A stretch of 41,625 bases of DNA from NCBI GenBank assembly GCA_013298545.1, contig JAAFIA010000040.1:1-41625 (forward strand). Reading direction: 5' to 3'. This DNA comes from Bacteroidota bacterium. Its GTDB lineage: Bacteria > Bacteroidota > Bacteroidia > Palsa-965. The translations under genes and the position numbers were made by a program. Numbering within the stretch: position 1 is the first letter of the stretch; each line of letters opens with the position of its first letter. The notes under the pieces are model-generated. The model saw nothing but the letters and a program-made list of their open reading frames with translations, had not been told where the DNA came from and searched no databases. This document shows positions 493-41,127 of this stretch, in pieces.

Positions 493-500
493 TACATTTG
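493..500 (+). promoter_or_regulatory. -7 box TACATTTG, 4 nt before a GTG start
   Basis: This matches the Bacteroidota housekeeping -7 consensus TAnnTTTG. Only 4 nt separate it from the GTG at 505, which would place transcription start at or next to the start codon. No -33 TTG was found at the usual distance. Confidence 0.5.
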
Positions 501-504
501 AGCT

Positions 505-1131
505 GTGAACGCAAGACCAATACGCTTTTCTAAAATCCCCAACGAACTAAAAAGTATCGTTTTGTTTGTTTTGCTCCTACAAGCTTGCGCATCGCCCACA
601 CCCCCACCCGACCCCCGCCCGCAAAACGCCTGCAACTACGCCAACGCTTTTATCACCCTCCACGATTCACTCATCGCCTCCCGCACCCAAATCGCAATCG
701 CTTACGAACAAAAATCAATCGCCAAAATCCTCGCTACCGAAAAGCGATTCAAAGAAAAATTGCAGCAAACACACGATTCCATTGCGCAATTCCCAAACTT
801 TGAATCCGATTCCTCGCTCAAACTCGCTTGGCTCAACCTCATCAATACCTACCAAAACCAAATCAACCGCTGGATCGGTATGCGTGGCATCATCCTCACC
901 GAAGATGCCGTTGACACCATCGCCAATCCAAACCTCCCCGACATCAATCCCGAAACCGATACGTTAGATCCAAACGATGCACTCATTCCCAAATATGAAT
1001 TCATCGAAAAACGCATCCTTCGCGATGAGCAAAACGCATTTATCCAACTCGACTCCGTACAACAAAATTTTGCCCGAAAATATAATTTCCTCCTCCCACG
1101 CACTCCCATGCCGCCAATAGATGCAGAGTGA
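505..1131 (+). CDS. Small lipoprotein of unknown function
   Basis: I do not recognise the family. The 208-residue product has a basic N-terminus, a short hydrophobic stretch (IVLFVLLL) and a lipobox-like LQAC near residue 28, followed by a proline-rich linker (SPTPPPDPRP). This suggests an exported lipid-anchored protein; Q at -2 of the lipobox is unusual, so the anchor is an inference. The rest looks helical, with repeated KRF/KL/Q stretches and an acidic loop (DINPETDTLDPNDA). GTG was chosen as start because it follows a TACATTTG box and no ATG precedes the signal sequence. The coding strand is strikingly C-rich and G-poor. The 2-epimerase gene starts 16 nt after the stop but has its own promoter box. 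Confidence 0.65.
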   Translation: MNARPIRFSKIPNELKSIVLFVLLLQACASPTPPPDPRPQNACNYANAFITLHDSLIASRTQIAIAYEQKSIAKILATEKRFKEKLQQTHDSIAQFPNFESDSSLKLAWLNLINTYQNQINRWIGMRGIILTEDAVDTIANPNLPDINPETDTLDPNDALIPKYEFIEKRILRDEQNAFIQLDSVQQNFARKYNFLLPRTPMPPIDAE

Positions 1132-1132
1132 T

Positions 1133-1140
1133 TACCTTTG
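1133..1140 (+). promoter_or_regulatory. -7 box TACCTTTG, 7 nt before the 2-epimerase ATG
   Basis: This is a perfect TAnnTTTG match between the stop codon of the lipoprotein gene and the ATG at 1148. With 7 nt between box and ATG, the mRNA would have almost no leader. It probably drives the polysaccharide operon. Confidence 0.6.
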
Positions 1141-1147
1141 ATTTCGT

Positions 1148-2239
1148 ATGAAACGTATCCTGACCGTTGTAGGCACACGACCCAATTTTATTAAAGTAAC
1201 ACAATTCAGAAAAGTTGCGCAACACTTTCCGCAACTCGAACTGAAAATCGTGCACACGGGTCAGCATTACGACGGAAAAATGGCGGATGTTTTTTTTCAG
1301 CAATTTGGCCTTCAACCCGATTTTTTTCTCGATGTTCCGCCCGGTTCGCCCAACATGCAAATGGCCGAAATCATGCTGCGGCTCGAAAAATTAATCGAGT
1401 CGTATCAACCCGATTTGATTGCCGTTGTTGGCGATGTTAATTCCACGCTTGCTGCTGCATTAACAGCCAATAAATTAAACATCAAACTCGCACACATCGA
1501 AAGTGGCTTGCGGAGCAACGACCGCACCATGCCCGAAGAATTCAACCGCATACTCACCGACGAACTGGCCGATTTTCTTTTTGTTACCGAGCCAAGCGGA
1601 ATCGAACACCTGCGAAAAGAAGGCAAAGCCGCCGAAAAGCTATTTTTTGTCGGAAATACCATGATCGATACACTCGCTGCTTACGCAGCAGAAATCGACG
1701 CTTCGCCTATTCTCCAAACATGGAATTTGCAGCCGCAGCAATTTGTGCTCATGACCATGCACCGCCCCGCAACAGTCGATTCGAAAGAAGGCTTGTTGAA
1801 ATTGCTCGAACTCATACGCGAAGTGTGCAAAACAACTGACCTCATTTTTCCGGTTCATCCACGCACCGTAAAACACCTGCAACAATTCGGCCTCGAAAAC
1901 GATTTTCACCGCATTGCACGTTTGCGTCTTTGCGATCCGCTCGATTATTTTGCGTTTCAATGCCTCGTCAAAAACGCGCAGTACATTCTTACCGATAGTG
2001 GCGGCATTCAAGAAGAATCGACTTGGTTGGGTGTTCCCTGTCTTACGCTGCGGCCCAATACAGAGCGGCCCGTAACGGTTACACATGGCACCAACGAATT
2101 GTTGCCTTTCGATCTCGGCATCATTCGCAACCACATACAAATCATACAGCAAGGCCAATTCAAAAAAGGTGTACAACCCATCATGTGGGATGGAAAAGCC
2201 ACCAACCGTATTTTTGAAATTTTTTCGCGCATCCTTTGA
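1148..2239 (+). CDS. wecB: UDP-N-acetylglucosamine 2-epimerase (non-hydrolysing)
   Basis: The enzyme interconverts UDP-GlcNAc and UDP-ManNAc for surface polysaccharide synthesis in the cytoplasm. At 363 residues it has the usual length. Family landmarks appear in order: GTRPNFIK at the N-terminus (the common form is GTRPEAIK), HTGQHYD, GDVNST, HIESGLRS, PEEFNR, MTMHRP, HPRT, TDSGGIQEES with the conserved Ser and Glu, and LRPNTERP. It is the first gene of a three-gene operon: its TGA overlaps the TTG start of the next gene, indicating translational coupling with two glycosyltransferases. The divergent PNFIK in place of PEAIK is seen in part of the family and may mark a different sugar. Symbol by homology; the exact sugar product is inferred. 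Confidence 0.93.
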   Translation: MKRILTVVGTRPNFIKVTQFRKVAQHFPQLELKIVHTGQHYDGKMADVFFQQFGLQPDFFLDVPPGSPNMQMAEIMLRLEKLIESYQPDLIAVVGDVNSTLAAALTANKLNIKLAHIESGLRSNDRTMPEEFNRILTDELADFLFVTEPSGIEHLRKEGKAAEKLFFVGNTMIDTLAAYAAEIDASPILQTWNLQPQQFVLMTMHRPATVDSKEGLLKLLELIREVCKTTDLIFPVHPRTVKHLQQFGLENDFHRIARLRLCDPLDYFAFQCLVKNAQYILTDSGGIQEESTWLGVPCLTLRPNTERPVTVTHGTNELLPFDLGIIRNHIQIIQQGQFKKGVQPIMWDGKATNRIFEIFSRIL

Positions 2240-6609: not shown

Positions 6610-6617
6610 TACCTTTG
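6610..6617 (+). promoter_or_regulatory. -7 box TACCTTTG deciding the aminotransferase start
   Basis: Perfect TAnnTTTG match only 4 nt before an in-frame GTG at 6622. Because an open frame continues upstream through the box, a longest-ORF start at 6562 would place the promoter inside the gene; the box argues for 6622 and a leaderless mRNA. Confidence 0.6.
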
Positions 6618-6621
6618 TGCC

Positions 6622-7812
6622 GTGATCTCGCAACGGCAATTGTATTTGAATCATTTGGCACAAACCAGCCCCGCCCCCCTCGCACTCGAAATTGTGCACG
6701 CCGAAGATGTCTTCCTTACCGATACTTCTGGAAAAAAATACGTCGATCTCATTGCCGGTATTTCCGTCAGTTCTGTTGGCCACCGCCACCCCCGCGTTGT
6801 CGATGCCATCAAATCGCAAGCCGATCAATACTTGCACGTCATGGTCTATGGCGAATACATCCTTTCGCCACAAGTCAAACTCGCCACCAAAATTGCCTCG
6901 CTACTTCCCGCTTCGCTCAACGCTACCTATTTCACCAATTCGGGCGCAGAAGCCACCGAAGGCGCACTCAAACTCGCTAAACGCCTCACCGGACGCAGCG
7001 AACTCATTTCCTTCGTCAACGCCTACCACGGCAGCACGCATGGCGCACTCAGCATCATGGGCAACGAATACTTCAAAACCGCCTACCGCCCACTCCTGCC
7101 CGATACCCAACTGCTCGCCTTCAACTCCTTTACCGATTTAGAAAAAATCACCACACGTACCGCTTGCGTGGTTGTAGAACCCGTTCAAGGCGAAGCCGGC
7201 GCTGTTGTTGCCACAAACGGATTTCTTGCCGCCTTACGCAAACGCTGCACCGAAACTGGAACACTTTTAATTTTTGACGAAATACAAACCGGATTTGGTC
7301 GCACCGGAAAACTTTTTGGCTTTCAACACGAAGAAGTCATTCCCGACATCATTTTATTTGCCAAAGGAATTGGCGGCGGCATGCCGATTGGGGCCTTTAC
7401 CAGTTCGCATGAAAACATGTTGGCGTTCACCGAAAATCCGGTGCTCGGACACATCACCACGTTTGGCGGCCATCCGGTTTCCTGCGCAGCCGCACTCGCT
7501 ACGATCAATATTATTGAAGAAGAAAATTTAGTGGCTGGTGTGGCCTCGCGCGAAACCATTATCCGTAAACACCTTGTTCATCCAGCAATTCGCGAATTGC
7601 GTGGACGTGGTTTACTGCTTGCTGCAATTTTTGAACATGCAGAAATCAATCAGCGTGTTATTCAGGCTTGCCTCAAACGCGGCATCATTACCGATTGGTT
7701 TTTGTTTTGCGACAATGGCTTGCGCATTGCTCCGCCACTAACCATCGATGAAAATCTATTGCGCGATTGCTGCTTGAAAATTGTGGATGCGATTCGTGAA
7801 GTAGTCGCTTAA
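6622..7812 (+). CDS. Class III (acetylornithine/ornithine-type) aminotransferase
   Basis: A 396-residue PLP-dependent transaminase that moves an omega-amino group from substrates such as ornithine, acetylornithine or 4-aminobutyrate to 2-oxoglutarate. Signatures in order: TNSGAEATEGALKLAK (cofactor phosphate binding), NAYHGSTHG, VEPVQGEAG, LIFDEIQTGFGRTG with the PLP-pyridine aspartate D219, FAKGIGGGMPIGAF with the Schiff-base lysine K248, and TTFGGHPVSCAAA. The start GTG 6622 follows a TACCTTTG box by 4 nt and gives the normal family N-terminus. The stop codon overlaps that of the convergent receptor gene. No arginine-pathway genes are nearby, so the substrate is open; I leave the symbol blank. 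The first 600 nt are very C-rich, the remainder less so. Confidence 0.9.
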   Translation: MISQRQLYLNHLAQTSPAPLALEIVHAEDVFLTDTSGKKYVDLIAGISVSSVGHRHPRVVDAIKSQADQYLHVMVYGEYILSPQVKLATKIASLLPASLNATYFTNSGAEATEGALKLAKRLTGRSELISFVNAYHGSTHGALSIMGNEYFKTAYRPLLPDTQLLAFNSFTDLEKITTRTACVVVEPVQGEAGAVVATNGFLAALRKRCTETGTLLIFDEIQTGFGRTGKLFGFQHEEVIPDIILFAKGIGGGMPIGAFTSSHENMLAFTENPVLGHITTFGGHPVSCAAALATINIIEEENLVAGVASRETIIRKHLVHPAIRELRGRGLLLAAIFEHAEINQRVIQACLKRGIITDWFLFCDNGLRIAPPLTIDENLLRDCCLKIVDAIREVVA

Positions 7813-10298
7813 AAACCCATTTGCGAATCGTCGCCGCCACCAGGTTGTGTTTGCTGGTTACGTTTCTGACTCTTGCTTTCTTCTCCTTTTCCGAAACGCC
7901 ATGTAAACGTAAACGTAAGCACACGCGTTTCGCGTTTGCGGCGCATTTGGAAATCGTAATTGTCGCTAAAATTGGTCATGCGCATGCCGCGTGTGTCCAT
8001 CACATCTGTCAAATTCAACGTAGCTGTTGCACGACCTTTCAGCAATTCCTGACGTACGCCAATATCAAATCCGGGAAGCATCTGAAACGAACCAACCGGT
8101 TGATAAAAAGGCGAATTGTACATGCCCGTCAATTGCAAACTCGTCATCGGCATGACTTTGTAGGTTGCCGACAAACGCACACTTCCATTTAAGGCTTCGC
8201 TTTGTAGTCCGGCTTCCAAATTGCTCGCATCAATCATATTGCGGAATCCGGTTGCCGTAAACATGATGTTGCCTTTGCGTTTAGGCAATTGATAGCGCAA
8301 CACAAATTCTAAACCGATATTATCTGAGCTTCCAAAATTTTGCGACGTTACTGTTCCAATTCCTGTATTCACATCAAAACGACGATAATGTGTAATCAGG
8401 TTGTCGGTATGGCGATAATAGGTTGACGCGTTCAAGGTCAATGCTTCCCATGTTTTGGTAAACGAGAAATCGATCGACTGAATAAATTCTGGACGCAAAT
8501 ACGGATTGCCCGTGCGGATATTGATCGAATCGCTATAATCGATGTACGGATTTAAACTTCGGTTATCAGGGCGATTGAGTCGGCGGCTATACCCCAATTG
8601 AAATTCGACACCATACTTAGGCGTGAAACGCACAGTACCACTTGGGAAAAGCGATAAATATTCACTCACAAAAGTTGTCGATGTCGATTCTGATTTTCCA
8701 GTCAAATCCGTGTATTCGGCACGAACACCCGCTTGAAAATCGAATTTGCGGATGTGCATTCCATATTGCAAATACCCCGCATAAACCGATTCGTCATACA
8801 AAAAGCGATCGGTAAAACGTGGGTCGTTGTTGTATGTGCCAACAATAAAATCAAGCAAGGATGAATTTTGTTGGCTATCGTATTGGCGCAAAGTATATTT
8901 CAGTCCGCCTTCCAGCTTCATCGAATCATTGAACGGATGCGAATAATCAGCTTGCGCAACAATGGCTTTATTGTTAATGATCGAGTTGTTCAACTGCGCA
9001 GCCAAAGCGGGTTCCACAAATGCGTAATTCGCATACTTCGCTTTTTCAGTGCGGTCATTATTCGAATACGAACCACTCAACGTAAACATCTTTTTCGATC
9101 CCGGCCATGTATGTCGGAAATCCAAGTTCGCATCATAACCTTGCTGATCTTCACGACTCAACGAATAGCGCGACAAGCCGCCATACTGATGTTCCAACGA
9201 ATCGAGGTAAGAATAAATCGTACTATCTTGTTTGTCTTCGCCACGCAGATTGCCACCCAATCCAAGCGAAAGCGTTGTGTATGGACTCAAATACAAATCG
9301 CCGCCAATTTTTCCACTGTGAAAAATGCTTTGATTGAGGCCACCACCATCGGAAATGAAATAATAATTGGTGTCTGCGGTGTAGGTATGTTGCTTGCCTA
9401 ATTTCTCTGACCAACGATCTTCTGCACGGAAATTATAATTCGCATACCAGTTTAATTTTGGTCCACGGTGATTGAGATTAACACCCGCATTGTACTTATT
9501 GTTGGTACCAACACCTGCCGTAACCGAACCATTGAATCCTTTTTCAGTTCCTTTTTTGGTAACGATGTTGATGATACCGCCCATGCCTTGCGCATCGTAT
9601 TTTGCCGATGGATTGGTAACCACTTCAATTCGCTCGATCATGCTTGCCGGAATTTGCTGCAATACCGCTTGACGGTCTGAACCAGTCAATCCAGATGGTT
9701 TACCGTCAATGAGAATGGTTACATTTTCGGTACCGCGCAAACTTATATTTCCGTCCATATCCACATTCACAGAAGGGATATTTTGCAACACATCTGTTGC
9801 CGTTCCGCCAGCATTAGTAATGCTTTTATCTACTTCGTAAACCTTCTTATCAATATTGCTCGTGTATTCTGCTTTATCATCTTCGATCACCACATCGCCC
9901 AGTTGTTTGCTCAATGCTGGCAGCAATAAAATACCAAGATCGGCCTGCGGTTGTTGCGGTGTAATCTGTACGACTTTTGAAAGCAGTGTTTTGTAGCCAA
10001 AAAAATTGATGCGAAGCTGCATTTTTCCGGCAGGAAGGTTTTTGATAACAAACTCTCCATTTTTGCCGGCCACTCCACCACCAACTACGGAAGTATCTTT
10101 GAGGTTGATGACTGCAATGGTAGCATACTCCACCGGATTACCTGAAAGGCTATCGTGAATGATGCCAATGATTTCGCCAGCGGCAAATTTGGGAGGGCCG
10201 CCACCTGCAGGCGGTTGAGCAAGTGCATCGAATGTTGTCAACAGCCATATCAATGACAGTAAAAAAAAACGAAGTGAGCGCGTTGCAACTGGTTTCAA
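7809..10298 (-). CDS. TonB-dependent-receptor-like outer-membrane beta-barrel protein
   Basis: An 829-residue outer-membrane protein. Order of parts: signal peptide ending near DALAQ; a carboxypeptidase-regulatory-like beta-sandwich (about 40-125; GEIIGIIHDSLSGNPVEYATI); a plug domain (about 140-245) with LQNIPSVNVDMDGNISLRG, ILIDGKPSG, and MGGIINIVTKKG; then a long barrel with alternating aromatic strands (YSRRLNRPDNRSLNPY is typical of the OMP_b-brl family). Such proteins take up or export unknown ligands with TonB energy; this subgroup often lacks a SusD partner and none is present here. It starts with TTG at 10298, 7 nt after a TATCTTTG box. The C-terminus ends in a polar Q/G-rich tail rather than the usual terminal aromatic residue, with final residue F. 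Ligand unknown. Confidence 0.88.
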   Translation of the reverse strand: MKPVATRSLRFFLLSLIWLLTTFDALAQPPAGGGPPKFAAGEIIGIIHDSLSGNPVEYATIAVINLKDTSVVGGGVAGKNGEFVIKNLPAGKMQLRINFFGYKTLLSKVVQITPQQPQADLGILLLPALSKQLGDVVIEDDKAEYTSNIDKKVYEVDKSITNAGGTATDVLQNIPSVNVDMDGNISLRGTENVTILIDGKPSGLTGSDRQAVLQQIPASMIERIEVVTNPSAKYDAQGMGGIINIVTKKGTEKGFNGSVTAGVGTNNKYNAGVNLNHRGPKLNWYANYNFRAEDRWSEKLGKQHTYTADTNYYFISDGGGLNQSIFHSGKIGGDLYLSPYTTLSLGLGGNLRGEDKQDSTIYSYLDSLEHQYGGLSRYSLSREDQQGYDANLDFRHTWPGSKKMFTLSGSYSNNDRTEKAKYANYAFVEPALAAQLNNSIINNKAIVAQADYSHPFNDSMKLEGGLKYTLRQYDSQQNSSLLDFIVGTYNNDPRFTDRFLYDESVYAGYLQYGMHIRKFDFQAGVRAEYTDLTGKSESTSTTFVSEYLSLFPSGTVRFTPKYGVEFQLGYSRRLNRPDNRSLNPYIDYSDSINIRTGNPYLRPEFIQSIDFSFTKTWEALTLNASTYYRHTDNLITHYRRFDVNTGIGTVTSQNFGSSDNIGLEFVLRYQLPKRKGNIMFTATGFRNMIDASNLEAGLQSEALNGSVRLSATYKVMPMTSLQLTGMYNSPFYQPVGSFQMLPGFDIGVRQELLKGRATATLNLTDVMDTRGMRMTNFSDNYDFQMRRKRETRVLTFTFTWRFGKGEESKSQKRNQQTQPGGGDDSQMGF

Positions 10299-10305
10299 GA
10301 TGGCA

Positions 10306-10313
10306 CAAAGATA
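10306..10313 (-). promoter_or_regulatory. -7 box TATCTTTG, 7 nt before the receptor TTG start
   Basis: TAnnTTTG match on the minus strand with only 7 nt to the TTG start at 10298, the same spacing as at the 2-epimerase gene. It supports the TTG start and a nearly leaderless transcript. Confidence 0.55.
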
Positions 10314-11006: not shown

Positions 11007-12317
11007 ATGCTGCGATTTATGAAACTACGCCTCCTCTTCTTTCTATTACTGTTTGCCGCCAATTCATACGCCCAAAATACGTGGCAAATTATGTTTGCTC
11101 CTGTATTCAGCAACCGTGTCGATGATCTGTTTATGGCAAGCCCCGATACGGGTTATGCCGTGAGCGGCGATGGACAAATTGTTAAAACCGTCAATGGGGG
11201 ATCAAACTGGTCTTTATTGACATTAAACAGCTCGGTATATTGCCGTTCGGTTGAATTTGTCAATCCGCAAATTGGGTTTGTGGGGGGCTTTCGCACCAAC
11301 CTGCAAATCGGTTCCAATATTTTACGCAAAACAAGCGATGGCGGTCAAACGTGGACGGACTTGACCAATCTCCTTCATCCAGTAGCGCAACAAGGCATTT
11401 GTGGACTTGCAGCGGCTGACGCGAATACCATTTATGGTTGCGGAAATTGGTACGAAGATTCGGCCTACATCGTCAAAACTACCGATCAAGGTGCTACTTG
11501 GTCATTTATTGACATGAGTATGTACGCCACTTCACTCATCGATCTGTATTTCATTAGTCCCGATACCGGATTTGCAACTGGAAAAGGCCCAATGCCGCTC
11601 GAAACTGCCGTTATTCTCTACACAACCGATGGCGGACAAACGTGGACTTATAAGTTTCAAAACACCTATTTCAGTGAGTTTTGCTGGAAAATATTCCCAC
11701 TTACCGATCAAATTATCTTTGCTTCGGTTGAAGAATGGCAGAATACGGGTGTTTCGCCGCAGATCTTAAAATCTATTGATGGCGGTATGAATTGGACAGT
11801 TTATCAGGTGCAACAAGCATCCTACAACATCGAAGGCATTGGATTCATCGACTCGCTGCATGGCTGGACGGGTGGCGATTGGAATTTCTCGTTTGAAACC
11901 GTTGATGGCGGACAAACTTGGGCACAAGTACCCATTTGCCCCATCATGAATCGGGTGTTTCGCATAAACGATTCTATTCTGTTTGCCAGCGGTTCTGAAA
12001 TTTGGCGGTACGCACCTCTCGGAACGGGTATTCGACCAACGCAACAAACGCCCATTCGGTATGTTTCGCTCAACTGCAATCCCAATCCAGTAAGTGATGT
12101 CTTGACCATTGACCTCAAACTCGAAAAATCGACCCAAGCACATCTTTCCCTGCTTGATGAGCAAGGACGACAAATTCGGCTCATCGACAATACCGTAAAA
12201 CCCAACGGAACATACCAATACAAGCTAGAAACAGCGCAACTTCCAGCAGGTATTTATTATGTTGTGATCAAGACCCACGAAGACAAAGCGAGTGCAAAAA
12301 TTGTGGTTACGCATTAA
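11007..12317 (+). CDS. T9SS-exported BNR-repeat (sialidase-like propeller) protein
   Basis: A 436-residue secreted protein. It starts with a signal peptide (LLFFLLLFAANSYAQ), followed by a seven-bladed-propeller-like region made of BNR/Asp-box repeats (TSDGGQTWTDL, TTDQGATWSFI, TTDGGQTWTYK, SIDGGMNWTVY, TVDGGQTWAQV), the YCF48/photosystem-II-stability-factor style. The last 80 residues are a type A T9SS sorting domain: NPNPVSDVLTIDL, then LLDEQGRQI, LPAGIYYVVIKT and a final KIVVTH. It is therefore probably cleaved and released or attached at the cell surface by T9SS. The start could also be ATG 11019; both leave the signal peptide intact. A weak TACATTTA box lies 16 nt upstream. Ligand or enzymatic activity is unknown; no catalytic sialidase residues were recognised. 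Confidence 0.88.
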   Translation: MLRFMKLRLLFFLLLFAANSYAQNTWQIMFAPVFSNRVDDLFMASPDTGYAVSGDGQIVKTVNGGSNWSLLTLNSSVYCRSVEFVNPQIGFVGGFRTNLQIGSNILRKTSDGGQTWTDLTNLLHPVAQQGICGLAAADANTIYGCGNWYEDSAYIVKTTDQGATWSFIDMSMYATSLIDLYFISPDTGFATGKGPMPLETAVILYTTDGGQTWTYKFQNTYFSEFCWKIFPLTDQIIFASVEEWQNTGVSPQILKSIDGGMNWTVYQVQQASYNIEGIGFIDSLHGWTGGDWNFSFETVDGGQTWAQVPICPIMNRVFRINDSILFASGSEIWRYAPLGTGIRPTQQTPIRYVSLNCNPNPVSDVLTIDLKLEKSTQAHLSLLDEQGRQIRLIDNTVKPNGTYQYKLETAQLPAGIYYVVIKTHEDKASAKIVVTH

Positions 12318-13545: not shown

Positions 13546-14844
13546 CTAATTCCGCGAACGCAATTGCCGCACGCCAATCAATTCTTCCGTCAAAGCACCC
13601 GGACTGCGGTGATACACATAGATCGTGTACATGTTCTCTGTTTCGGAATGCATGCCTTCCACTAAAAAATCGTCAGCCGCTTTTTCGCCATCTTTCAAAA
13701 ACACATATTCGTAATTGTAATAGCCTTGTTTTAAAAACAACGTCGCTTCATAGCCTTTGCGCTCGGCATTGTACGTCATGCGGTATTCTGGTCGGCATTG
13801 CCAATCGCTTAAGCCACCAAAGACATAGATATTGCCATCCTTTTCAGGAAAATCCCAAGGCAGAAAAAAATGCACGTACGCATAATCCGCATCCACATCA
13901 TGTGTCGAACCCTCAAACGTATGAATCAAAAAACGACCGTTAATGTCTTGCGAACTCGAATAGCGTTTAAACGCACGTTTCTCGTCGGGCAACATATACA
14001 CTTGTGTTGTTTTGCCCACAATTTCCATTTTCTGCACACGTTCTGCAGGTGTGCGCAAACTTCGGATATCACAAACACGAAATTCATTTCCCGCTTTAAA
14101 AACATTTCCATCTTCGTAATCATACACCAAATCCTGATCGCGCAGGAATTGTGGTTTTAGTCCAACCACCGCATTATCAGAACGCCCATTTTGTTGTACA
14201 ATCACGGTAAGCTCGGCAAACGGATTGGTAATGGATGAGCCTGAAGTATGAATCGTAAAATCGATTTCCTGTTTATAATTCCGATCACCAATGATGGTTG
14301 CCGCATGCGCTGTTCCATCAATCGTTACTTTCTCTTCGTAAATTCTGAAACGTTTGGTCAAGACTGGTTTTTCCGATGCACCTTCAGTATAAACACTCAA
14401 AATATAATTGCCCGATTTGCGCAATTTGAAATTCTCATTCGGAAATACAGCATTGTAGTGTGTGTACTGTTGAATCGTTCCGCGCGAAAGCCGATAATCG
14501 GTAATGGTTTGATCCGTAAACCCATCAATCACATCTGACTGCAAGATGTTTGACGGTTCCCAATTGATGGTACAATGAATGACGGTAAACTGATAGGTCT
14601 TCACATCGCCTTCCAAATCATCAAATCCCAAATACAATTGCTGATCGCCGCCCAAGGGAATAATCGGATCTGACAACCCTTCGAGCGCGGTACGCAACTG
14701 TACGCTCCGAATGGTACTCAAATACGTGCGATCATCGTACCGAATCGTACGATCTGTATAATAATCTGCCGTATCTGTTTGCGCCGCGAGTTGGAGCGAT
14801 TGAAATAAAAGAAAGAGAAAAAATAGTTTTCTGGAAATTTTCAT
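13546..14844 (-). CDS. Type IX secretion system plug protein (DUF5103)
   Basis: A 432-residue periplasmic/outer-membrane-associated protein. It begins with a signal peptide (LFFLFLLFQSLQLAAQ) and has the DUF5103 signatures TIRSVQL, PIIPLGGDQQLYLGFDDL, IHCTINWEPSNILQSD, FPNENFKLRKSGNY and YSSSQDINGRFL, plus a C-terminal YVFGGLSDWQ that looks like an immunoglobulin-like fold. In structural work on the T9SS translocon, a protein of this family plugs the periplasmic side of the SprA channel. That role here is by homology. It fits the presence of a T9SS substrate 1.2 kb away. A TACCTTTC near-match to the -7 box lies about 34 nt upstream. No other T9SS component is in the window. Confidence 0.88.
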   Translation of the reverse strand: MKISRKLFFLFLLFQSLQLAAQTDTADYYTDRTIRYDDRTYLSTIRSVQLRTALEGLSDPIIPLGGDQQLYLGFDDLEGDVKTYQFTVIHCTINWEPSNILQSDVIDGFTDQTITDYRLSRGTIQQYTHYNAVFPNENFKLRKSGNYILSVYTEGASEKPVLTKRFRIYEEKVTIDGTAHAATIIGDRNYKQEIDFTIHTSGSSITNPFAELTVIVQQNGRSDNAVVGLKPQFLRDQDLVYDYEDGNVFKAGNEFRVCDIRSLRTPAERVQKMEIVGKTTQVYMLPDEKRAFKRYSSSQDINGRFLIHTFEGSTHDVDADYAYVHFFLPWDFPEKDGNIYVFGGLSDWQCRPEYRMTYNAERKGYEATLFLKQGYYNYEYVFLKDGEKAADDFLVEGMHSETENMYTIYVYHRSPGALTEELIGVRQLRSRN

Positions 14845-16010: not shown

Positions 16011-17117
16011 CTAAAAACGCCAGCCGGCCCCGACCTCCCAGTATTCGGCTCTCGATAAATGTGTTTTAATATTCGTTGCCAACAACAAATGTTTGCCCAA
16101 CAAATAACGCGTTCCGATGCGGTTATAAATCAGACCACTTGCCGTGTAAGGCGTATATAGATAAACGCCCATCTCCATCGACCAGGCCAAACGCCCCAAG
16201 ACCAATTCGTACGAAAATTTTGCACCAAGTTGAATAGCGCCAAACGTACTCACGGGTGTATCATTCAAGCGCAAGCGATAGCGCACCGCCTGACTCCACA
16301 TCACATCAATGCCACCGCCAAAACGATGTTTGCGTGCCGTTTGGCGCATCACGCTCGTGAGCACATTCAACACGCCATAACGCGCATCCCGCGCAGGTTC
16401 AATGCCATTGAAACCCGTAACCAACAAAGCACTTACGCGCCAGCGACGCTCATTGAATAAACTATCCGAACGTGATGCCGAGGTGTGTTTGGGCGGCACA
16501 TGCTCCCGCACCCGAAAACTATACCCAAGCGAAACCATCGGCAAATTAATGCCTAAGTTTGGAACTTTCGCACCGCCATTCGAGAAATGAATGATACCAA
16601 TACCCGCATCCAAACGCTGCGCATCACGCAGGTAAACTTGTGTATTCAGCCGCAACGAAAAAATCGTATTCAGGTGCGAACCAATGGCAATGTTTTTATG
16701 ATTGGTAACTGGATCAAATTTTTTCGTGAGCCAACCCAAGCCCCAACCCACCAAAAAATGCGTTTTGAAACGACGTGTTTTTTTGCCCAAGGGAAAATTG
16801 ATGTACGGATATAAGCCAATTGCAGTACCCAATTGTTCGGGATTGCCCAAAGGCATCACAATACCAGAAACACCCATTTGCGGAAAATGAAACGGTTGAT
16901 GCCAGTAGGCGTTTCCGGGTGTTTTCATCCACACATCTACTTCTACCGCGAGCAATTGTTTTTTGACCAAATGTCCCATGTTGTAACGGTGTGTCCAGAA
17001 AAAACCTGCTTGCGGACGAACCGCCACAAAAAGCGAACGCATGCGTGTGCTTTCTTGCGCCCGAGTATGCATACACAAGAAGAGCATCGAATATAAAAGT
17101 AGATAACGCACTAACAT
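16011..17117 (-). CDS. PagL-like lipid A 3-O-deacylase family outer-membrane protein
   Basis: A 368-residue barrel protein with signal peptide ending near MHTRAQ. The diagnostic segment is IIHFSNGGAKVPNLGIN, in which His and Ser of the H-x-S-N pattern correspond to the catalytic pair of PagL deacylases. Many amphipathic strands with aromatic ends support an outer-membrane beta-barrel. It is about twice as long as proteobacterial PagL because a second barrel-like half (from about residue 205, after a polar linker) follows, as in other acyloxyacyl-hydrolase-annotated proteins of this phylum. Its promoter box TATATTTG lies 15 nt upstream with a -33 TTG. Activity on lipid A is inferred, not proven. 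Confidence 0.78.
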   Translation of the reverse strand: MLVRYLLLYSMLFLCMHTRAQESTRMRSLFVAVRPQAGFFWTHRYNMGHLVKKQLLAVEVDVWMKTPGNAYWHQPFHFPQMGVSGIVMPLGNPEQLGTAIGLYPYINFPLGKKTRRFKTHFLVGWGLGWLTKKFDPVTNHKNIAIGSHLNTIFSLRLNTQVYLRDAQRLDAGIGIIHFSNGGAKVPNLGINLPMVSLGYSFRVREHVPPKHTSASRSDSLFNERRWRVSALLVTGFNGIEPARDARYGVLNVLTSVMRQTARKHRFGGGIDVMWSQAVRYRLRLNDTPVSTFGAIQLGAKFSYELVLGRLAWSMEMGVYLYTPYTASGLIYNRIGTRYLLGKHLLLATNIKTHLSRAEYWEVGAGWRF

Positions 17118-17132
17118 GAGCTGGAGTTATGA

Positions 17133-17162
17133 CAAATATACAGACGATTGTGCTGAATACAA
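17133..17162 (-). promoter_or_regulatory. -33/-7 promoter for the PagL-like operon
   Basis: On the minus strand TTG (17160-17162) is followed by 19 nt and then TATATTTG (17133-17140), the full Bacteroidota sigma consensus arrangement. The ATG at 17117 follows 15 nt later. The promoter is divergent from and interleaved with that of mazG. Confidence 0.65.
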
Positions 17163-17163
17163 C

Positions 17164-17171
17164 TACCTTTG
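17164..17171 (+). promoter_or_regulatory. -7 box TACCTTTG, 4 nt before the mazG ATG
   Basis: Perfect TAnnTTTG match 4 nt before ATG 17176. The open frame extends to 17116, but the box lies inside that extension, so 17176 is the start and the mRNA is likely leaderless. Confidence 0.62.
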
Positions 17172-17175
17172 CACC

Positions 17176-17979
17176 ATGCACACGCTCGACGAAAAAACAG
17201 CCGCTTTTGCGCGCATGCTTACGATTATGGACGAACTCCGCGAACAATGTCCGTGGGATAAAAAACAAACACTCGAAAGCCTTCGCCACCTCACCATTGA
17301 AGAAATGTACGAACTCGGCGATGCCATTCTGGACAAAAACATGACGGGCATCAAAAAAGAACTGGGTGATGTCTTGTTGCACATTGTTTTTTATGCACGT
17401 ATTGCGAGCGAAACAAACGATTTTGATATTGCCGATGTCATTCATGCCGAATGCGATAAACTGGTTTCGCGTCACCCACACATTTATGGCGATGTGAAAG
17501 TTGAAAACGAAGAACAGGTGAAAGAGAACTGGGAAAAAATAAAACTCAAAGAAAAAGACAGCATCACGAGCGAAGGATTTCGTTCGGTCTTGGCGGGTGT
17601 TCCAGCGTCTTTACCTGCTGTGGTCAAGTCGTGGCGCATTCAGGAAAAAGCACGTGCTGTTGGTTTTGATTGGGATAAGCCCGAACAAGTGTGGGGAAAA
17701 GTAGAAGAAGAAATTCAAGAATTACACGCCGAAGTGGCTGCCAAAGCAACACCCGAAAAAATTGAATCCGAATTTGGCGATGTGCTTTTTGCTTTAATCA
17801 ATTATGCTCGATTTATTGGCATCAACCCAGAAGACGCACTCGAAAAAACGAATAAAAAATTCATCCGCCGCTTCCAATACCTCGAACGCGAATCGCAAAA
17901 CGATGGCAAGAAATTGGAAGATATGAAGCTGGACGAAATGGATGTGTACTGGAACCGCGCGAAGGAGCTGGAGCGGTAA
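17176..17979 (+). CDS. mazG: Nucleoside triphosphate pyrophosphohydrolase MazG
   Basis: A 267-residue two-domain MazG, close to the usual length. It hydrolyses NTPs to NMP and pyrophosphate, with roles in removing aberrant nucleotides and in (p)ppGpp control in model bacteria. The N-terminal domain has ELREQCPWDKKQT and the metal site EEMYELGDAI...ELGDVLLHIVFYAR; the C-terminal domain repeats it as EEEIQELHAEV...EFGDVLFALINYAR. Between them is the SWRIQEKARAVGFDW linker typical of full-length MazG. The start at 17176 matches the family N-terminus and the promoter box. An AT-rich islet follows directly after the gene. Confidence 0.94.
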   Translation: MHTLDEKTAAFARMLTIMDELREQCPWDKKQTLESLRHLTIEEMYELGDAILDKNMTGIKKELGDVLLHIVFYARIASETNDFDIADVIHAECDKLVSRHPHIYGDVKVENEEQVKENWEKIKLKEKDSITSEGFRSVLAGVPASLPAVVKSWRIQEKARAVGFDWDKPEQVWGKVEEEIQELHAEVAAKATPEKIESEFGDVLFALINYARFIGINPEDALEKTNKKFIRRFQYLERESQNDGKKLEDMKLDEMDVYWNRAKELER

Positions 17980-21128: not shown

Positions 21129-21136
21129 TACATTTG
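21129..21136 (+). promoter_or_regulatory. -7 box TACATTTG for the MORN/transglutaminase operon
   Basis: TAnnTTTG match 27 nt upstream of ATG 21164. It overlaps an upstream in-frame TTG (21134), which is therefore rejected as start. No second such box was noticed in the junctions of the following three genes. Confidence 0.6.
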
Positions 21137-21163
21137 CTAACAATCCAAAAAATACCCCTTTTT

Positions 21164-24100
21164 ATGCTTCACAAAACGCTCTTTCTTCTTTTTACAATCG
21201 CGGTACTCGCCTGTGCGCCCCTGCATGCACAAAAAAATGTAGAATTAATTGATACCAAGGCAATCCTCGAAGAAGGCCAACAGCTTCAAGCTACTGGTCG
21301 TTTCGGAAAAGCCATTAACCTCTACAAACAAGTTTCGCGCAACGATAGCGCTTACGAAACCGTTATCTACCAACTCGCCATCTGTTACCTCGACGACGAT
21401 CAAGATAGCTTGGGCATGCTCACCGCACAAAAAGGCATCGAACTCAACGGCGATTACAATGGAATTTTCTATACGCTCAAAGGCATTGCGTATAAAAAAA
21501 TGGAACGTTACCCCGACGCGCTTAAAATTCTGAGCGATGGTATTGCCAAATATCCACGTCTGCCCAGCCTCAACCGCGTCAAAGGCGATGTGTATTTCAA
21601 AATGAAAAATTACAAAGATGCTGTGCCTTGCTACCAACGCACCATCGAACTCAACTTGTACGACGAAGAAGCACATTTCATGCTTGGCAAATGCTTGCTC
21701 GAACAAGGCCGTACCGTTCCCGCATTATTGACCTTTGAATTTTTCCTGCTCCTTGAAAATGGAACAGAACGCACCACCAAAGTCGTAACGCTCTGCGAAA
21801 ATTTATACACCGACGAGTACGAATTTGACCCCGACCAAAAAATGACCTCGCGCGAGGCGGGCGATCAAGTTTTTGATGATATTGCCGAACTCCTCAGTTC
21901 TAAAATTGGAAAAGCCCCTGGTTATAAAGACAAAACGGGACTGAATTTCAACCTCACCAAACAACGCCAGTTGATGATCGAAAAACTGCATTACGAAGCA
22001 GGAAGCGGAAACTGGTTTATGGAAAATTACGTTCCCTTTTTTACGGCCATTCAACAACAAGGACAACTTGTTCCTTACTCGCTTTATTCACTCGGAACAC
22101 TCAATGGCAAGAAAGTTCAAAAGGCCATCAAAAAGAAAAAACGCGCCATCAAAAGTTTTGCCGAATGGGCCGGAAAAAAATTAATCGAGATGCGTAAAAA
22201 TCGGGAAACACCGCTTTATGGCGATGCGAAAGGATTGCAACACCTCTATCACGAAAACAATGTGCTTGCCGCTTTGGGTAAAGAAAATGCCCAAGAGAAA
22301 CCAGTCGGCGAATGGACCTATTTTGAACGCCTCACCGGAAATAAAATCGGTGTAGCCAATTACAACAGCCTCGGCGAATTTGACGGTTTATTCGAACTTT
22401 TTTATGCTGATGGTACGCCCCAAGAACGCATCATGTATGCAAACGGCAAGAAAAATGGCCTCGCAAAATTTTGGTACGATAACGGAAATCCAAGTGCCGA
22501 AATCGAATTCAAAGACGATAAAGAAAACGGAAAATATGTAACCTACCTCTATTCCGGTCAAAAAGAATACGAAGGCAATTTTAAAGACGGAAAATTAGAC
22601 GGCCCATTCACCGCCTATTACAGCAACGGTACAAAAAGCACCGATGCCACGTACAAAGCAGGTAAGCTCGATGGCCAATTGACATCCTGGTTTGCCAACG
22701 GAACAAAATCGCGCGAAGCAGGCTACAAGGAAGAGAAAAAAGACGGTCCATTCATCAACTATTATGAGAATGGAAAACTCCAAGCTGAAGGCGCGTACAC
22801 CGCTGACGAAATGAGTGGTCCTTGGAAAACATATTTCAAAGATGGAAAGCTGAAAGAAGAAGGAACGTACAACACCAAGGGCAAAATCATTGGTACGTGG
22901 AAAGAATATTTCTACAACGGAAAACTCGAAGTAGAAAGCAATTACGATCAAGAAGGCTTGCGCCAAGGCGAAACCAATTTCTATGAAGACGATGGCACCA
23001 AAGTAACGCAGATGGATTTTGTAAAAGACCTGCCAGTACGTGTTCGCAATTTCAATGAAAAAGGTGAAGTTACCAACGATGAAAAAGCAAGTGGCAAACG
23101 TATCCGTGTTACAACCTATTGGTTTAACGGAAACAAACGGGCTAGCGGCGATTATTTCGATGGGAAAAAAGATGGCGAGTGGAATTATTATTCCATCCAC
23201 GGCGCACTCGAAACAACCGAAAATTTAGAAGCCGGCGAAGGCAATGGCAAACGCAAAGAATACTATTCAAACGGCCAACTGCAAAGCGATTGCAAACTCA
23301 AAAAAGGCGAGTACGACGGCTACTTTAAATCGTACTACGTCAATGGTAAAATTGAATCGGAAGGTTGGTATGTCAAAGATCAACGCGAAGGTGCTTGGTA
23401 TTCTTATAGTGAATCGGGACAAGTTGCCGCTTACCGTTTCTATAAGGAAGGCGAACTTGAAGGACATACCGAATTTTATGATGCGTATGAAAATATTGTA
23501 GAAGACCGCCTCTATAAAAACAAAATCATGATACGCTCCATCGAGCAAGATAGCTCGGGCAAAATTGTTTACGATTTCAATACCAAGGATGGATCTGGTG
23601 CTTTCTTGTGGAATCATACCAACGGAAAGGTTTACCAAGACATTACCTACAAAAGCGGAAACTTTGAAGGGCCACGCACCAGCGGACATTTCAATGGCAA
23701 CAAAGCTTTTACTGGATCGTATGTTATGGGTTATTCACACGGCCCATACACCAATTATTTCGACAATGGAAAAGTTCAATCCGAAGGAACATACGTCCTC
23801 GGCGATTTAGATGGTCTGCGCAAAGATTACTGGGAAAACGGAAAACTCAAACACGAAGCCAACTACATCCTTGGCGAAGATCATGGTACGTTTAAATACT
23901 ATTTCGACAATGGTCAACTCGAACGCGAAGGGCAATACGTTTGGGGACAAGCCGAAGGCGAATTCCGCTATTACGCTCGCGATGGTGCGCTGGTCGGCGT
24001 ACGTTGGTATCGCCACGATTATTTAGTCGCTTATTCTTATCCTGGCAAAGACGGCAAACTCGTGGAGAAAAAAACACTCAAAGCCGATGGCAATGGCGAT

Positions 24101-24487
24101 ACACTTTTCAGCTATTACCCCAATGGGCAATTGGCCGTCAAAGCCGTTTACAAATACGGCAAACTCGATGGCAAACGTTACGAGTATTTTGCAGATGGTA
24201 AACTTGCCGAAGAAGAAAATTATATTGCTGGCGACCTCGATGGTCCACAGAAATACTTCTATGCAAACGGCAATCCCAAGGCCGAAATCAATATGGTTAT
24301 TGATGCTGAAAACGGTGTGCAAAAAACGTATTTCGAAAACGGAAAAATCAAAAGCGAATGGTTCTCGATTTGTGATGAATACTACGGCGATTTCAAAACA
24401 TACAATTACGATAAAGGTGCTACACCAACCATCACGGTGAGCAAATTTTACAATGACATTTGTTTCGCTCAAACAACAACCAAATAA
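21164..24487 (+). CDS. Giant exported TPR and MORN-2 (YwqK-type) repeat protein
   Basis: A 1107-residue secreted or periplasmic protein. Signal peptide: TLFLLFTIAVLACAPLHAQ. Residues about 35-200 are TPR-like (FGKAINLYKQVSRND, YPDALKILSDGIAKYP, YKDAVPCYQRTIELN). About 200-380 is a helical linker. From about 385 to the end run more than 20 MORN-2 repeats of 20-25 residues with consensus YY-NG-L--EG-Y--G--DG (examples: YYSNGQLQSDCKLKKGEYDG, YFDNGKVQSEGTYVLGDLDG). Automatic pipelines may label such repeats as YwqK-family antitoxin; the export signal and size make that label unlikely. It is the first gene of a four-gene operon; its TAA overlaps the next ATG (TAATG). It has no T9SS sorting domain. 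A scaffold or binding role is inferred from the repeats only. Confidence 0.9.
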   Translation: MLHKTLFLLFTIAVLACAPLHAQKNVELIDTKAILEEGQQLQATGRFGKAINLYKQVSRNDSAYETVIYQLAICYLDDDQDSLGMLTAQKGIELNGDYNGIFYTLKGIAYKKMERYPDALKILSDGIAKYPRLPSLNRVKGDVYFKMKNYKDAVPCYQRTIELNLYDEEAHFMLGKCLLEQGRTVPALLTFEFFLLLENGTERTTKVVTLCENLYTDEYEFDPDQKMTSREAGDQVFDDIAELLSSKIGKAPGYKDKTGLNFNLTKQRQLMIEKLHYEAGSGNWFMENYVPFFTAIQQQGQLVPYSLYSLGTLNGKKVQKAIKKKKRAIKSFAEWAGKKLIEMRKNRETPLYGDAKGLQHLYHENNVLAALGKENAQEKPVGEWTYFERLTGNKIGVANYNSLGEFDGLFELFYADGTPQERIMYANGKKNGLAKFWYDNGNPSAEIEFKDDKENGKYVTYLYSGQKEYEGNFKDGKLDGPFTAYYSNGTKSTDATYKAGKLDGQLTSWFANGTKSREAGYKEEKKDGPFINYYENGKLQAEGAYTADEMSGPWKTYFKDGKLKEEGTYNTKGKIIGTWKEYFYNGKLEVESNYDQEGLRQGETNFYEDDGTKVTQMDFVKDLPVRVRNFNEKGEVTNDEKASGKRIRVTTYWFNGNKRASGDYFDGKKDGEWNYYSIHGALETTENLEAGEGNGKRKEYYSNGQLQSDCKLKKGEYDGYFKSYYVNGKIESEGWYVKDQREGAWYSYSESGQVAAYRFYKEGELEGHTEFYDAYENIVEDRLYKNKIMIRSIEQDSSGKIVYDFNTKDGSGAFLWNHTNGKVYQDITYKSGNFEGPRTSGHFNGNKAFTGSYVMGYSHGPYTNYFDNGKVQSEGTYVLGDLDGLRKDYWENGKLKHEANYILGEDHGTFKYYFDNGQLEREGQYVWGQAEGEFRYYARDGALVGVRWYRHDYLVAYSYPGKDGKLVEKKTLKADGNGDTLFSYYPNGQLAVKAVYKYGKLDGKRYEYFADGKLAEEENYIAGDLDGPQKYFYANGNPKAEINMVIDAENGVQKTYFENGKIKSEWFSICDEYYGDFKTYNYDKGATPTITVSKFYNDICFAQTTTK

Positions 24488-26439
24488 TGCTGCGTAAGAA
24501 TTTATTTTTTTTCGTTTGTGGTCTTTCTTCCGTAGCCTTTGCACAAAAAGAAGATTTAACCGAGTCGTATGCCAAACGTTATCCGGGTGAGAACTCCGTT
24601 TTTGTTGCCAAAACAGAAAGCCACACGATTAAAATTGAGCGCAACGAGCCTGTCATTTATTCGGAGAACCACGAAGACATTTTGATCCTCAGCGATAAAA
24701 TGTCAACGTACTCCGACCGCAACATTTATTTTTCTTCGTTTACCGAAATCACGCGCATCGATGCGTTCACCCTTTATCCCGACGGAAAAGGGGGCTACAA
24801 AACCGACCGCGCCGAAAAATTGGGCATTACCAATGAGTTTGCTTCCGGCTCGTTTTACGACGATTACCGCGCACAACATGTTGGTTTTGGCAACATCCAA
24901 CGCGGCAGCCGCATGGTGCTCAATTACACCGAAAAATTAAACGAAGCGCGTTTCTTTGGTCGTTTCTTTTTCAACGCCTCCATCCCAACCGAGTATTCCG
25001 AATTTTCGGTACTCGTTCCCAAAGGCGTAAAAATCATTACCAAACTTTTTGGTATTGCCGAAAAAGACTTAACCATCAACCAAACAAAAGTTGGAAACGC
25101 CATCAAATACAGTTGGCGCGCACAGAATCCGAAACGCTACAAAGCCGAAGACGATGGCCCCACCATCAGTTATTTCGCGCCACACATTGTTGTGTACATC
25201 ACCGAATTTACCGACCAGAGCGGCAATGTTGTCAAACTCCTCAATGGTACAGACGGACTTTATGATTGGTATTACAGCATGGTGTCGGGTGTCGGGAAAA
25301 AAGAAAGTCCAAGCCTCCAAAAATTAGTTGACTCGCTTGTGGCTGGCGAAACCGATGAGTTTAAAAAAGTAACCAAGATTTTTTATTGGGTACAAGACAA
25401 CATCAAGTACGTGGCTTTTGAAGACGGTATGGGCGGTTTTGTGCCACGCGAAGCCGCCGACGTTTGCGACCGCCGCTATGGCGATTGCAAAGACATGGGC
25501 AATATTATTGTTACCATGCTCCGCCTCGCCAAAATTCCGGCATACATTACGTGGATTGGTACGCGAAACATCCCATACACGTACGATCAAGTGCCTTCGC
25601 CCATGTCGGACAACCACATGATTGCAACGTATGTCAAAGACAGCACGTATTGGTTTCTCGATGCCACCGGAAAAAATGCACCAATTGGTATGCACACATC
25701 CATGATTCAAGGCAAAGAAGCGTTGCTTGCTTGGAACGACAATGAATACAAAGTAGTGCGTGTTCCCATTATTCCCAAAGAACAAAATACCCGCGTTGAT
25801 TCCGTAATCATGTATGCCGATTTGAGTGCCGAAAACGCTTCTGGTGTTTCGTTATATGGAACAGGATTTTCGACCATTCGTGGGTACGAAAAAATTCACC
25901 TCACCTACCCGCTCGATGCGATGAACGAGCTAGATAAATTGAAGTTTTTTGTCAGTTATTTGGAGAAAGGAAACAATACGTTTGGCGTTGATTCTTTGCA
26001 TTACTTCAATTTGTATGATCGTTCTAAAAACTTAGAAATCGATTACACCTTTCGCATTGACGATTATGTGCGGCGCAATGGCAATGAAATGTATGTCAAT
26101 TTCAACATCGACAAATCATTTCAAAACCGCTTGCTCGATACCGAAAAACGACAAGCTCCACTCGAAATAGATTACCTCAACACCGAGCGTCATGTAACCG
26201 TCATGCAAATACCAGCGGGTTGGACCGTTGGGTATATGCCGCCCAACGCATCGTATAACGGAACTGATTTTGGTTTTACCATTTCGTACAAACAAGTTGG
26301 CGATCGTATTTACTGCGAACGCACCATTTACATCAATACGCTTTTGGTGAAGCCAGAGCAATTTGAAACGTGGAATAAATTCATCAAACTTTTAGGCAAA
26401 GCCTATACCGAAACGGTTATCATTAAGAAAAAAGTATAA
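24487..26439 (+). CDS. Exported DUF3857/transglutaminase-like protein, intact triad
   Basis: A 650-residue protein with signal peptide (NLFFFVCGLSSVAFAQ). Residues about 40-250 are the DUF3857 beta domain (RNEPVIYSENHEDILILSDK, GSRMVLNYTEKLNEARFFGR). A transglutaminase-like core follows at about 280-400 with the full triad: C334 in RYGDCKDMG, H377 in SDNHMIA and D392 in WFLDATGK. The C-terminal 230 residues are beta-rich (DUF2569-like or similar; not identified). The fold can act as a cysteine protease, amidase or cross-linker; the substrate is unknown. The start ATG 24487 overlaps the stop of the MORN gene, giving tight coupling, and removes the nine-residue extension read from a further upstream ATG in the open frame. 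Confidence 0.88.
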   Translation: MLRKNLFFFVCGLSSVAFAQKEDLTESYAKRYPGENSVFVAKTESHTIKIERNEPVIYSENHEDILILSDKMSTYSDRNIYFSSFTEITRIDAFTLYPDGKGGYKTDRAEKLGITNEFASGSFYDDYRAQHVGFGNIQRGSRMVLNYTEKLNEARFFGRFFFNASIPTEYSEFSVLVPKGVKIITKLFGIAEKDLTINQTKVGNAIKYSWRAQNPKRYKAEDDGPTISYFAPHIVVYITEFTDQSGNVVKLLNGTDGLYDWYYSMVSGVGKKESPSLQKLVDSLVAGETDEFKKVTKIFYWVQDNIKYVAFEDGMGGFVPREAADVCDRRYGDCKDMGNIIVTMLRLAKIPAYITWIGTRNIPYTYDQVPSPMSDNHMIATYVKDSTYWFLDATGKNAPIGMHTSMIQGKEALLAWNDNEYKVVRVPIIPKEQNTRVDSVIMYADLSAENASGVSLYGTGFSTIRGYEKIHLTYPLDAMNELDKLKFFVSYLEKGNNTFGVDSLHYFNLYDRSKNLEIDYTFRIDDYVRRNGNEMYVNFNIDKSFQNRLLDTEKRQAPLEIDYLNTERHVTVMQIPAGWTVGYMPPNASYNGTDFGFTISYKQVGDRIYCERTIYINTLLVKPEQFETWNKFIKLLGKAYTETVIIKKKV

Positions 26440-26462
26440 TTCATCCGTATTCTCCCTTGACT

Positions 26463-28451: not shown

Positions 28452-28466
28452 GCTACACAAACGCGT

Positions 28467-29210
28467 ATGGTAAAATTTGGAAAATGGTTGGGCGGCGGAC
28501 TGGGCTGGGCATTGGGCGGTCCACTAGGCGCGTTGATTGGGTTTGCGGTTGGTTCGGTTTTCGACTCAGCAGAAATTTCGGTATCGCGCAGTACCATCGG
28601 TGAAAATATTGGCTACAATCCGCAAACCGCTGCGGGCGATTTTGCGGCTAGTCTGCTGGCCCTCTCAGCCGCCGTCATGGAAAGCGATGGCAAAGTATTG
28701 CGTTCCGAATTGGATTATGTCAAACGCTTTCTCGTGGTACAGTTTGGCGAAGCCAACGCACAAAAACTCTTGCCTGTTTTAAAAGATTTATTGGCACGCG
28801 ATATTCCCGTTGCCGAAATCTGCAAACAGATTCGCCTCTACATGCCCGAAGCGCAACGCCTGCAATTGTTGCAATACTTATTTGGAATTGCGCAAGCCGA
28901 TGGGCATGTGGATGAACGCGAAGAGAAACTCATTGCTAGTATTGCAAGCAATCTCGGTGTTTCGCAAACCGAATACGAATCCATTCGCGCTGTTTATTGG
29001 CGCGATACGGAAAGCGATTATAAAATTTTGGAGATCCTTCCTACGGCGAGTGATGAGGAAGTGAAGAAAGCGCACCGCAAAATGGTGATGAAATACCATC
29101 CCGATCGCGTGGCTGATTTAGGAGAAGCGGCACAAAAAGCCGCGCATGAACAATTTCAACACATTCAAGAAGCTTTTGAAAACATCCGCAAAACACGCGG
29201 ATTTGCTTAA
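28467..29210 (+). CDS. DjlA-like protein: membrane anchor, TerB and J domain
   Basis: A 247-residue co-chaperone-like protein. The N-terminus is a glycine-zipper membrane segment (GGGLGWALGGPLGALIGFAVG), the middle (about 55-170) is a TerB-like helical domain with the acidic motif SDGKVLRSELDYVKRF and ADGHVDEREEKLI, and the C-terminus (about 178-245) is a J domain with YKILEILPTASDEEVKKAHRKM and the HPD tripeptide in KYHPDRVA. This order is that of DjlA, an inner-membrane DnaK partner. It starts 15 nt after the pseudo-transglutaminase gene, suggesting the same operon, although a cytosolic J domain would not contact the exported proteins directly. Confidence 0.88.
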   Translation: MVKFGKWLGGGLGWALGGPLGALIGFAVGSVFDSAEISVSRSTIGENIGYNPQTAAGDFAASLLALSAAVMESDGKVLRSELDYVKRFLVVQFGEANAQKLLPVLKDLLARDIPVAEICKQIRLYMPEAQRLQLLQYLFGIAQADGHVDEREEKLIASIASNLGVSQTEYESIRAVYWRDTESDYKILEILPTASDEEVKKAHRKMVMKYHPDRVADLGEAAQKAAHEQFQHIQEAFENIRKTRGFA

Positions 29211-40774: not shown

Positions 40775-41121
40775 GGGGAATTTTCAAGTTCCAAGTTCCA
40801 AGTTCCAAGTTCCAAGTTCCAAAGGATTACGTTGTTATTTACTGAACCGATGGGGAATTTCCAAGTTCCAAGTTCCAAAGGATTACGATACATTTACTTA
40901 GGCGATTTTAGAAGTTCCAAATTTTAGATACGAGAATTTTAGTGATGTGCTGATTCGTCAACTCTCAGGTTGCGCAAAAAATCTCTGCCTCCTCATGTCT
41001 AAAGTTTGGAACTTGGAAATTGAGATTTGGAACTTGGAAATTGGAGCTTGGAATCTGGAAATTGGAAATTGGAAATTGGAATCTGGAAATTGGAGCTTGG
41101 AACTTGGAATCTGGAACTTGA
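40775..41121. repeat. Inverted AAGTTCC-heptamer repeat array
   Basis: The 355-nt gap after the DUF1365 gene is filled by short repeats. The left part (40785-40822 and 40861-40878) consists of TTCCAAG heptamers, embedded in two direct copies of GGGGAATTT...CCAAAGGATTACG (40775-40832, 40852-40887). The right part (41004-41121) consists of TTGGAAC/TTGGAAA heptamers, the reverse complement, so the arms can fold together. A CTCATGTCTAAA string at 40992 also occurs at the end of copy B (39930). No gene is supported here; peptide-like readings are artefacts of the repeat. Confidence 0.8.
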
Positions 41122-41127
41122 AGCTTG

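Follow-up and report, generated by a model that had tools for sequence, protein, structure and literature searches.

The sigma-ABfr promoters of Bacteroides and Flavobacterium combine a -33 element, TTTG, with a -7 box described as TAnnTTTG and revised to TAHHTTTG. In F. johnsoniae, transcription starts 4 or 5 nt downstream of many of these boxes (PMC6847099). Leaderless mRNAs are rare in both genera: 5' UTRs shorter than 10 nt make up 3.7% in B. thetaiotaomicron (PMC7366714), leaderless messages 5.5% in F. psychrophilum (PMC9723704), and 87% of the leaders in F. johnsoniae are longer than 10 nt (PMC6847099). In mycobacteria, about a quarter of the mRNAs are leaderless and coexist with leadered ones; ATG and GTG work about equally well at their 5' end, and TTG does not (PMC4633059). 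A survey from 2011 modelled only Pribnow-like boxes, a limit for Bacteroidetes noted by its authors (PMC3160421), and for this reason it could hardly have detected a leaderless class in the phylum. A literature search for leaderless genes in Chitinophaga found nothing.

The window analyzed here (41,625 nt, positions 1 to 41,625 of contig JAAFIA010000040.1) contains five genes with a perfect TAnnTTTG box only 4 or 7 nt before the start codon, a distance hereafter called the gap. These had been listed by a sequence-only reading of the same DNA, and every coordinate and gap (4, 7, 4, 7 and 4 nt) was confirmed. On the forward strand, TACATTTG (493-500) precedes GTG 505 of a putative lipoprotein gene (505-1131) with a gap of 4, and TACCTTTG is found before ATG 1148 of a UDP-GlcNAc 2-epimerase (Epimerase_2) gene (box 1133-1140, gap 7; gene 1148-2239), before GTG 6622 of a class-III aminotransferase gene (box 6610-6617, gap 4; gene 6622-7812) and before ATG 17176 of a MazG nucleotide pyrophosphohydrolase gene (box 17164-17171, gap 4; gene 17176-17979). 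On the reverse strand, TATCTTTG (10306-10313) precedes the probable TTG start at 10298 of an outer membrane beta-barrel / TonB-dependent family gene (7809-10298) with a gap of 7, the codon at gap 4 being ATC. All five boxes fit TAHHTTTG, with no G at the nn positions. The remaining start-proximal boxes of the window have gaps of 15, 18, 19, 20, 27, 27 and 41 nt, as the same reading had it (15-41 nt).

The total number of boxes in the window (37) is not above that in shuffled sequences (42.6 +/- 7.0), so the signal resides in position alone. At gaps 4-7 of about 30 starts, 5 boxes were found against about 0.05 expected (Poisson 4e-9, a figure that ignores that the starts were chosen by the reader). 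Close TTTG boxes could also be a product of base composition, arising by chance in the T-rich sequence before start codons; the chance-level total fits this explanation, as do two crude counts against reversed patterns, which show no excess for the loose box TANNTTTG 7 nt before ATG (85 versus 81) or, in the genome of the window, for TANCTTTG 4 nt before GTG (11 versus 11). Since reversed-pattern controls were too crude, we adopted as control 29 motifs that permute the letters of TAHHTTTG, scored at predicted starts. From the 4.53-Mb assembly (154 contigs), 1.23 Mb (about 27%) was sampled as stretches; gene calling on these with a codon-pair model of our own gave 847 predicted starts, with homology-based starts for a few genes. 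At these starts, perfect TAHHTTTG boxes occur 3 times at gaps 0-3 (permuted mean 1.0), 42 times at gaps 4-7 (1.4, i.e. 30 times the control), 11 times at gaps 8-14 (1.9), 78 times at gaps 15-40 (9.6) and 52 times at gaps 41-80 (13.1). Such a box-to-start histogram had been proposed as a check on the window, and it shows a sharp peak at 4-7 nt. The coexistence of two modes of initiation, also claimed from the window, agrees with the presence of both the 4-7 and the 15-40 class, separated by a dip at 8-14. Across the whole genome, TATCTTTG placed 4 to 7 nt before ATG has 53 occurrences and the reversed pattern 8. With motifs of the same composition yielding so little at the same starts, we give chance almost no weight.

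The boxes act like promoters in the bases that flank them and in the free space upstream of their genes. G directly follows the box in 2% of cases at gaps 4-7 and in 7% at gaps 15-40, compared with 31% of the boxes inside genes; this flank signature is shared by the gap 4-7 and the leadered boxes and missing from those within genes. The variants TAHHTTCG and TAHHTTTA are enriched at gaps 4-7, where the TAHG and TAGH variants are scarce. The box is the same as that of the sigma-ABfr promoters, which it also resembles in the rarity of G at the nn positions, the absence of G after the box and the AT-rich upstream flank. Two features differ: many boxes here are 4-7 nt from a start codon, and the TTTG -33 element is not visible, neither TTTG nor TTG being enriched at -33 in the gap 4-7 or the leadered class. 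In F. johnsoniae, too, the -33 element is far less conspicuous (PMC6847099), so its absence here is not decisive against a sigma-A (-7 box) promoter.

In the 0.84-Mb subset, 28 of 30 boxes at gaps 4-7 stand before genes with free upstream space. This is not what would be expected if the boxes were real but secondary promoters, the main transcripts coming from further upstream and most translation depending on a leader or on coupling with the preceding gene; nor would two peaks separated by a dip be expected if the box-determined leader length were irrelevant. This explanation is most plausible for the epimerase gene, whose box adjoins the stop codon of the upstream gene (which ends at 1131), beginning 2 nt past its last base, and whose relatives have no box in the equivalent position. 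Their boxes are at gaps of 11 or 8, or missing: the gap is 11 in G253, the box of G250 lies further from the aligned start, and the others have none. The box at 1133 is only weakly conserved, and our confidence in the leaderless assignment of this gene is moderate. For the class as a whole, we consider secondary promoters improbable, while for any single gene a longer transcript from an upstream promoter may exist.

Transcription a few nucleotides past the box, which the sequence-only reading took as the rule in this phylum, corresponds to the published spacing of 4-5 nt (PMC6847099). Its further statement, that these mRNAs begin at or next to the start codon, is one we infer: with this spacing, boxes at gaps 4-7 would give leaders of 0-3 nt, the spacing being a value taken over from Flavobacterium. 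The cut-off of the histogram below gap 4 fits the same spacing and would be expected if no RNA could begin within the start codon itself. We therefore hold it very probable, from the placement of the boxes, that the genes at gaps 4-7 are leaderless or nearly so, expressed from -7 elements of the sigma-ABfr type that occupy two discrete placements. The boxes would be normal -7 elements recognised by the housekeeping sigma factor of Bacteroidota, and RNA polymerase starting 4-5 nt past a box at gap 4-7 would produce RNAs that open with the start codon or have 1-3 nt ahead of it. Leaderless or nearly leaderless messages would then come from about a quarter of the boxed genes, and the others would mostly carry leaders of about 10-35 nt or more, with few leaders of 4-9 nt. 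Housekeeping genes such as those for GltX, an IleS-type synthetase, MnmG, RbfA, MutS and MetF would belong to the leaderless-type set. Their translation would presumably involve direct recognition of the start codon by the 70S ribosome or by an initiator-tRNA-loaded 30S subunit, favoured by IF2, a process that operates on an AUG or GUG located right at the 5' terminus.

This reading depends on the start codons. If they were mis-assigned, the boxes could be normal promoters with the real start 15-40 nt further downstream, and start prediction is indeed generally imprecise; for the outer-membrane protein gene, the caller favoured a start 57 nt downstream of TTG 10298. The enrichment of in-frame triplets at gaps 4-7 is nevertheless specific to ATG (and GTG), ATG occurring 68 times and every other codon about once at each gap. 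In-frame ATGs further downstream are less frequent in these genes than elsewhere: 12% of the leaderless-type genes have one 12-57 nt downstream, compared with 20% overall. In addition, GltX, MnmG, RbfA and MetF enter their Pfam domains at residue 5-6, and the alignments of the aminotransferase, MazG and epimerase with their orthologues start at about residue 1. Mis-assignment is in our view quite unlikely, and homology together with these domain starts indicates that in these genes the codon at gap 4-7 is probably the true start.

Leaderless assignment differs in strength among the five genes. It is strongest for the aminotransferase (high confidence), with the gap of 4 retained in the congeners G247, G248 and G249, where ATG replaces GTG 6622. 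For MazG, confidence is good. A longer ORF from 17116 passes through the promoter box, and in two congeners the box of the orthologue is the variant TAATTTCG, likewise with a gap of 4. No Pfam match was found for the gene at 505, an orphan whose GTG is taken as the start solely from a lipoprotein-like N-terminus with a lipobox-like LQAC, and here our confidence is moderate to low. The outer-membrane protein gene has TATCTTTGtgccATCTTG in this genome and TATCTTTGcgccGTG at gap 4 in the orthologue of G249; confidence is moderate overall, and the case is weak in its start codon, because TTG is otherwise absent at gaps 4-7 and agrees poorly with direct recognition. TTG 10298 is an outlier whose true start or leader may differ from that proposed.

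The order comprises 12 genomes of our genome set, from one family and three genera. Comparing our sample with 400 kb of the congener G248 gave 61 reciprocal best pairs, in which 7 of our genes are leaderless-type. Applied strictly, 3 of the 7 partners are also leaderless-type, for a base rate of 16/232 (7%); by eye, allowing for mis-called starts and one-mismatch boxes, the number rises to 5-6 of 7, as judged after seeing the data. The gene for DNA polymerase III delta keeps TAACTTCG, the gap of 4 and the GTG in both genomes.

To tally start codons, we took the predicted starts that have a TAHHTTYG box in 1.6 Mb from the genus. Among 71 box-linked starts at gaps 4-7, there are 65 ATG, 6 GTG and 0 TTG, the counts of the last two codons being lower bounds because the gene caller penalises both. 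Every GTG is at gaps 4-5 (33 ATG and 6 GTG, n=39), and gaps 6-7 have 32 ATG and no GTG. Among the leadered box-linked genes, 6 of 111 start with TTG. GTG and TTG had both been expected to be unusual in leaderless messages. For GTG this does not hold, as it makes up 6 of 39 starts at gaps 4-5 and is normal in mycobacteria (PMC4633059), so that a GTG that opens the message, as proposed for 505 and 6622, is credible. For TTG the expectation stands to the extent that such starts do not form a class; the leaderless-type starts are AUG or GUG, and TTG 10298 of the window is the lone exception.

To express frequency, we used the control-subtracted share of gap 4-7 among all perfect boxes within 80 nt of a start. 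This share is 26% in the genome of the window, 45% in the congener G248, and 31% (G007) and 3% (G238) in two other families of the same class, the last three values resting on 16, 6 and 1 boxes, respectively; stretches of seven further genomes had too few genes and were left out of the counts. The 3% of G238 indicates that the method can yield a low figure. When one-mismatch variants are allowed, leaderless-type boxes precede about 11-12% of all genes whose upstream space is free. Compared with the rare leaderless mRNAs of Bacteroides and Flavobacterium, the phylum, promoter and mode are the same and the frequency is several times higher, although the two are not strictly comparable, perfect boxes being counted here and measured ends there. 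A known mode of expression would occur in a Bacteroidota family not studied before, several times as often as measured in the phylum. The share of about a quarter, the use of ATG and GTG rather than TTG at the 5' end and the coexistence with leadered genes recall mycobacteria (PMC4633059), from which our case differs in promoter and phylum, and in that the share was measured there and is deduced from sequence here. Unlike in mycobacteria, the leadered class of Bacteroidota makes almost no use of Shine-Dalgarno sites; the 16S 3' end retains the CCTCC anti-Shine-Dalgarno core.

Across the phylum, the ratio of TATCTTTG at gaps 4-7 to gaps 18-27 places the family of our genome at the top together with f3, f25 and f2, which is an indication only, as the ratio uses one spacer variant and a weak control. 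In the f25 genome G101, from another class of the phylum, TATCTTTG was found 37 times 4-7 nt before ATG (control 1) and 15 times 18-27 nt before it (control 1). We think it somewhat likely that several Bacteroidota families, including the present one, are rich in leaderless mRNAs, in a mycobacteria-like manner for housekeeping genes, and that they were overlooked because the survey considered Pribnow-like boxes only and experiments were restricted to Bacteroides and Flavobacterium. The present lineage suggests that the published figure of 4-6% leaderless mRNAs is not representative of the whole phylum.

For the question of how Bacteroidota ribosomes locate start codons without Shine-Dalgarno pairing, a lineage with two clean leader classes (about 0-3 nt, and about 10 nt and more) offers natural material for separating, in one cell, direct recognition of the start codon from the mode that uses AT-rich leaders. 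Systematic mis-annotation of starts is also predicted, with ORF callers passing through the box and adding N-terminal extensions. Two such read-through ORFs, at 17116-17176 of the window and near 16602 in locus L199 of G248, end their extension in Y-L-C-x-M before the true start.

Some further observations were made. Leaderless-type boxes are present on the genes of three aminoacyl-tRNA synthetases: GltX (L010:18060-19610), the IleS-type enzyme (L101:13012-16491) and a class II enzyme, probably GlyS (L005:5397-6938). Elsewhere in the window, a protein with the type 9 secretion C-terminal sorting domain is encoded near a type 9 secretion plug protein gene (11007-12317 and 13546-14844). The region 21134-29210 encodes a TPR plus MORN-repeat protein, two tandem DUF3857 proteins, the first of which has a transglutaminase-like core, and then a TerB-DnaJ protein. 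Near the end of the window, heptamer repeat arrays (CAAGTTC; TTGGAAA) are found at 40785-40822 and 41006-41127.
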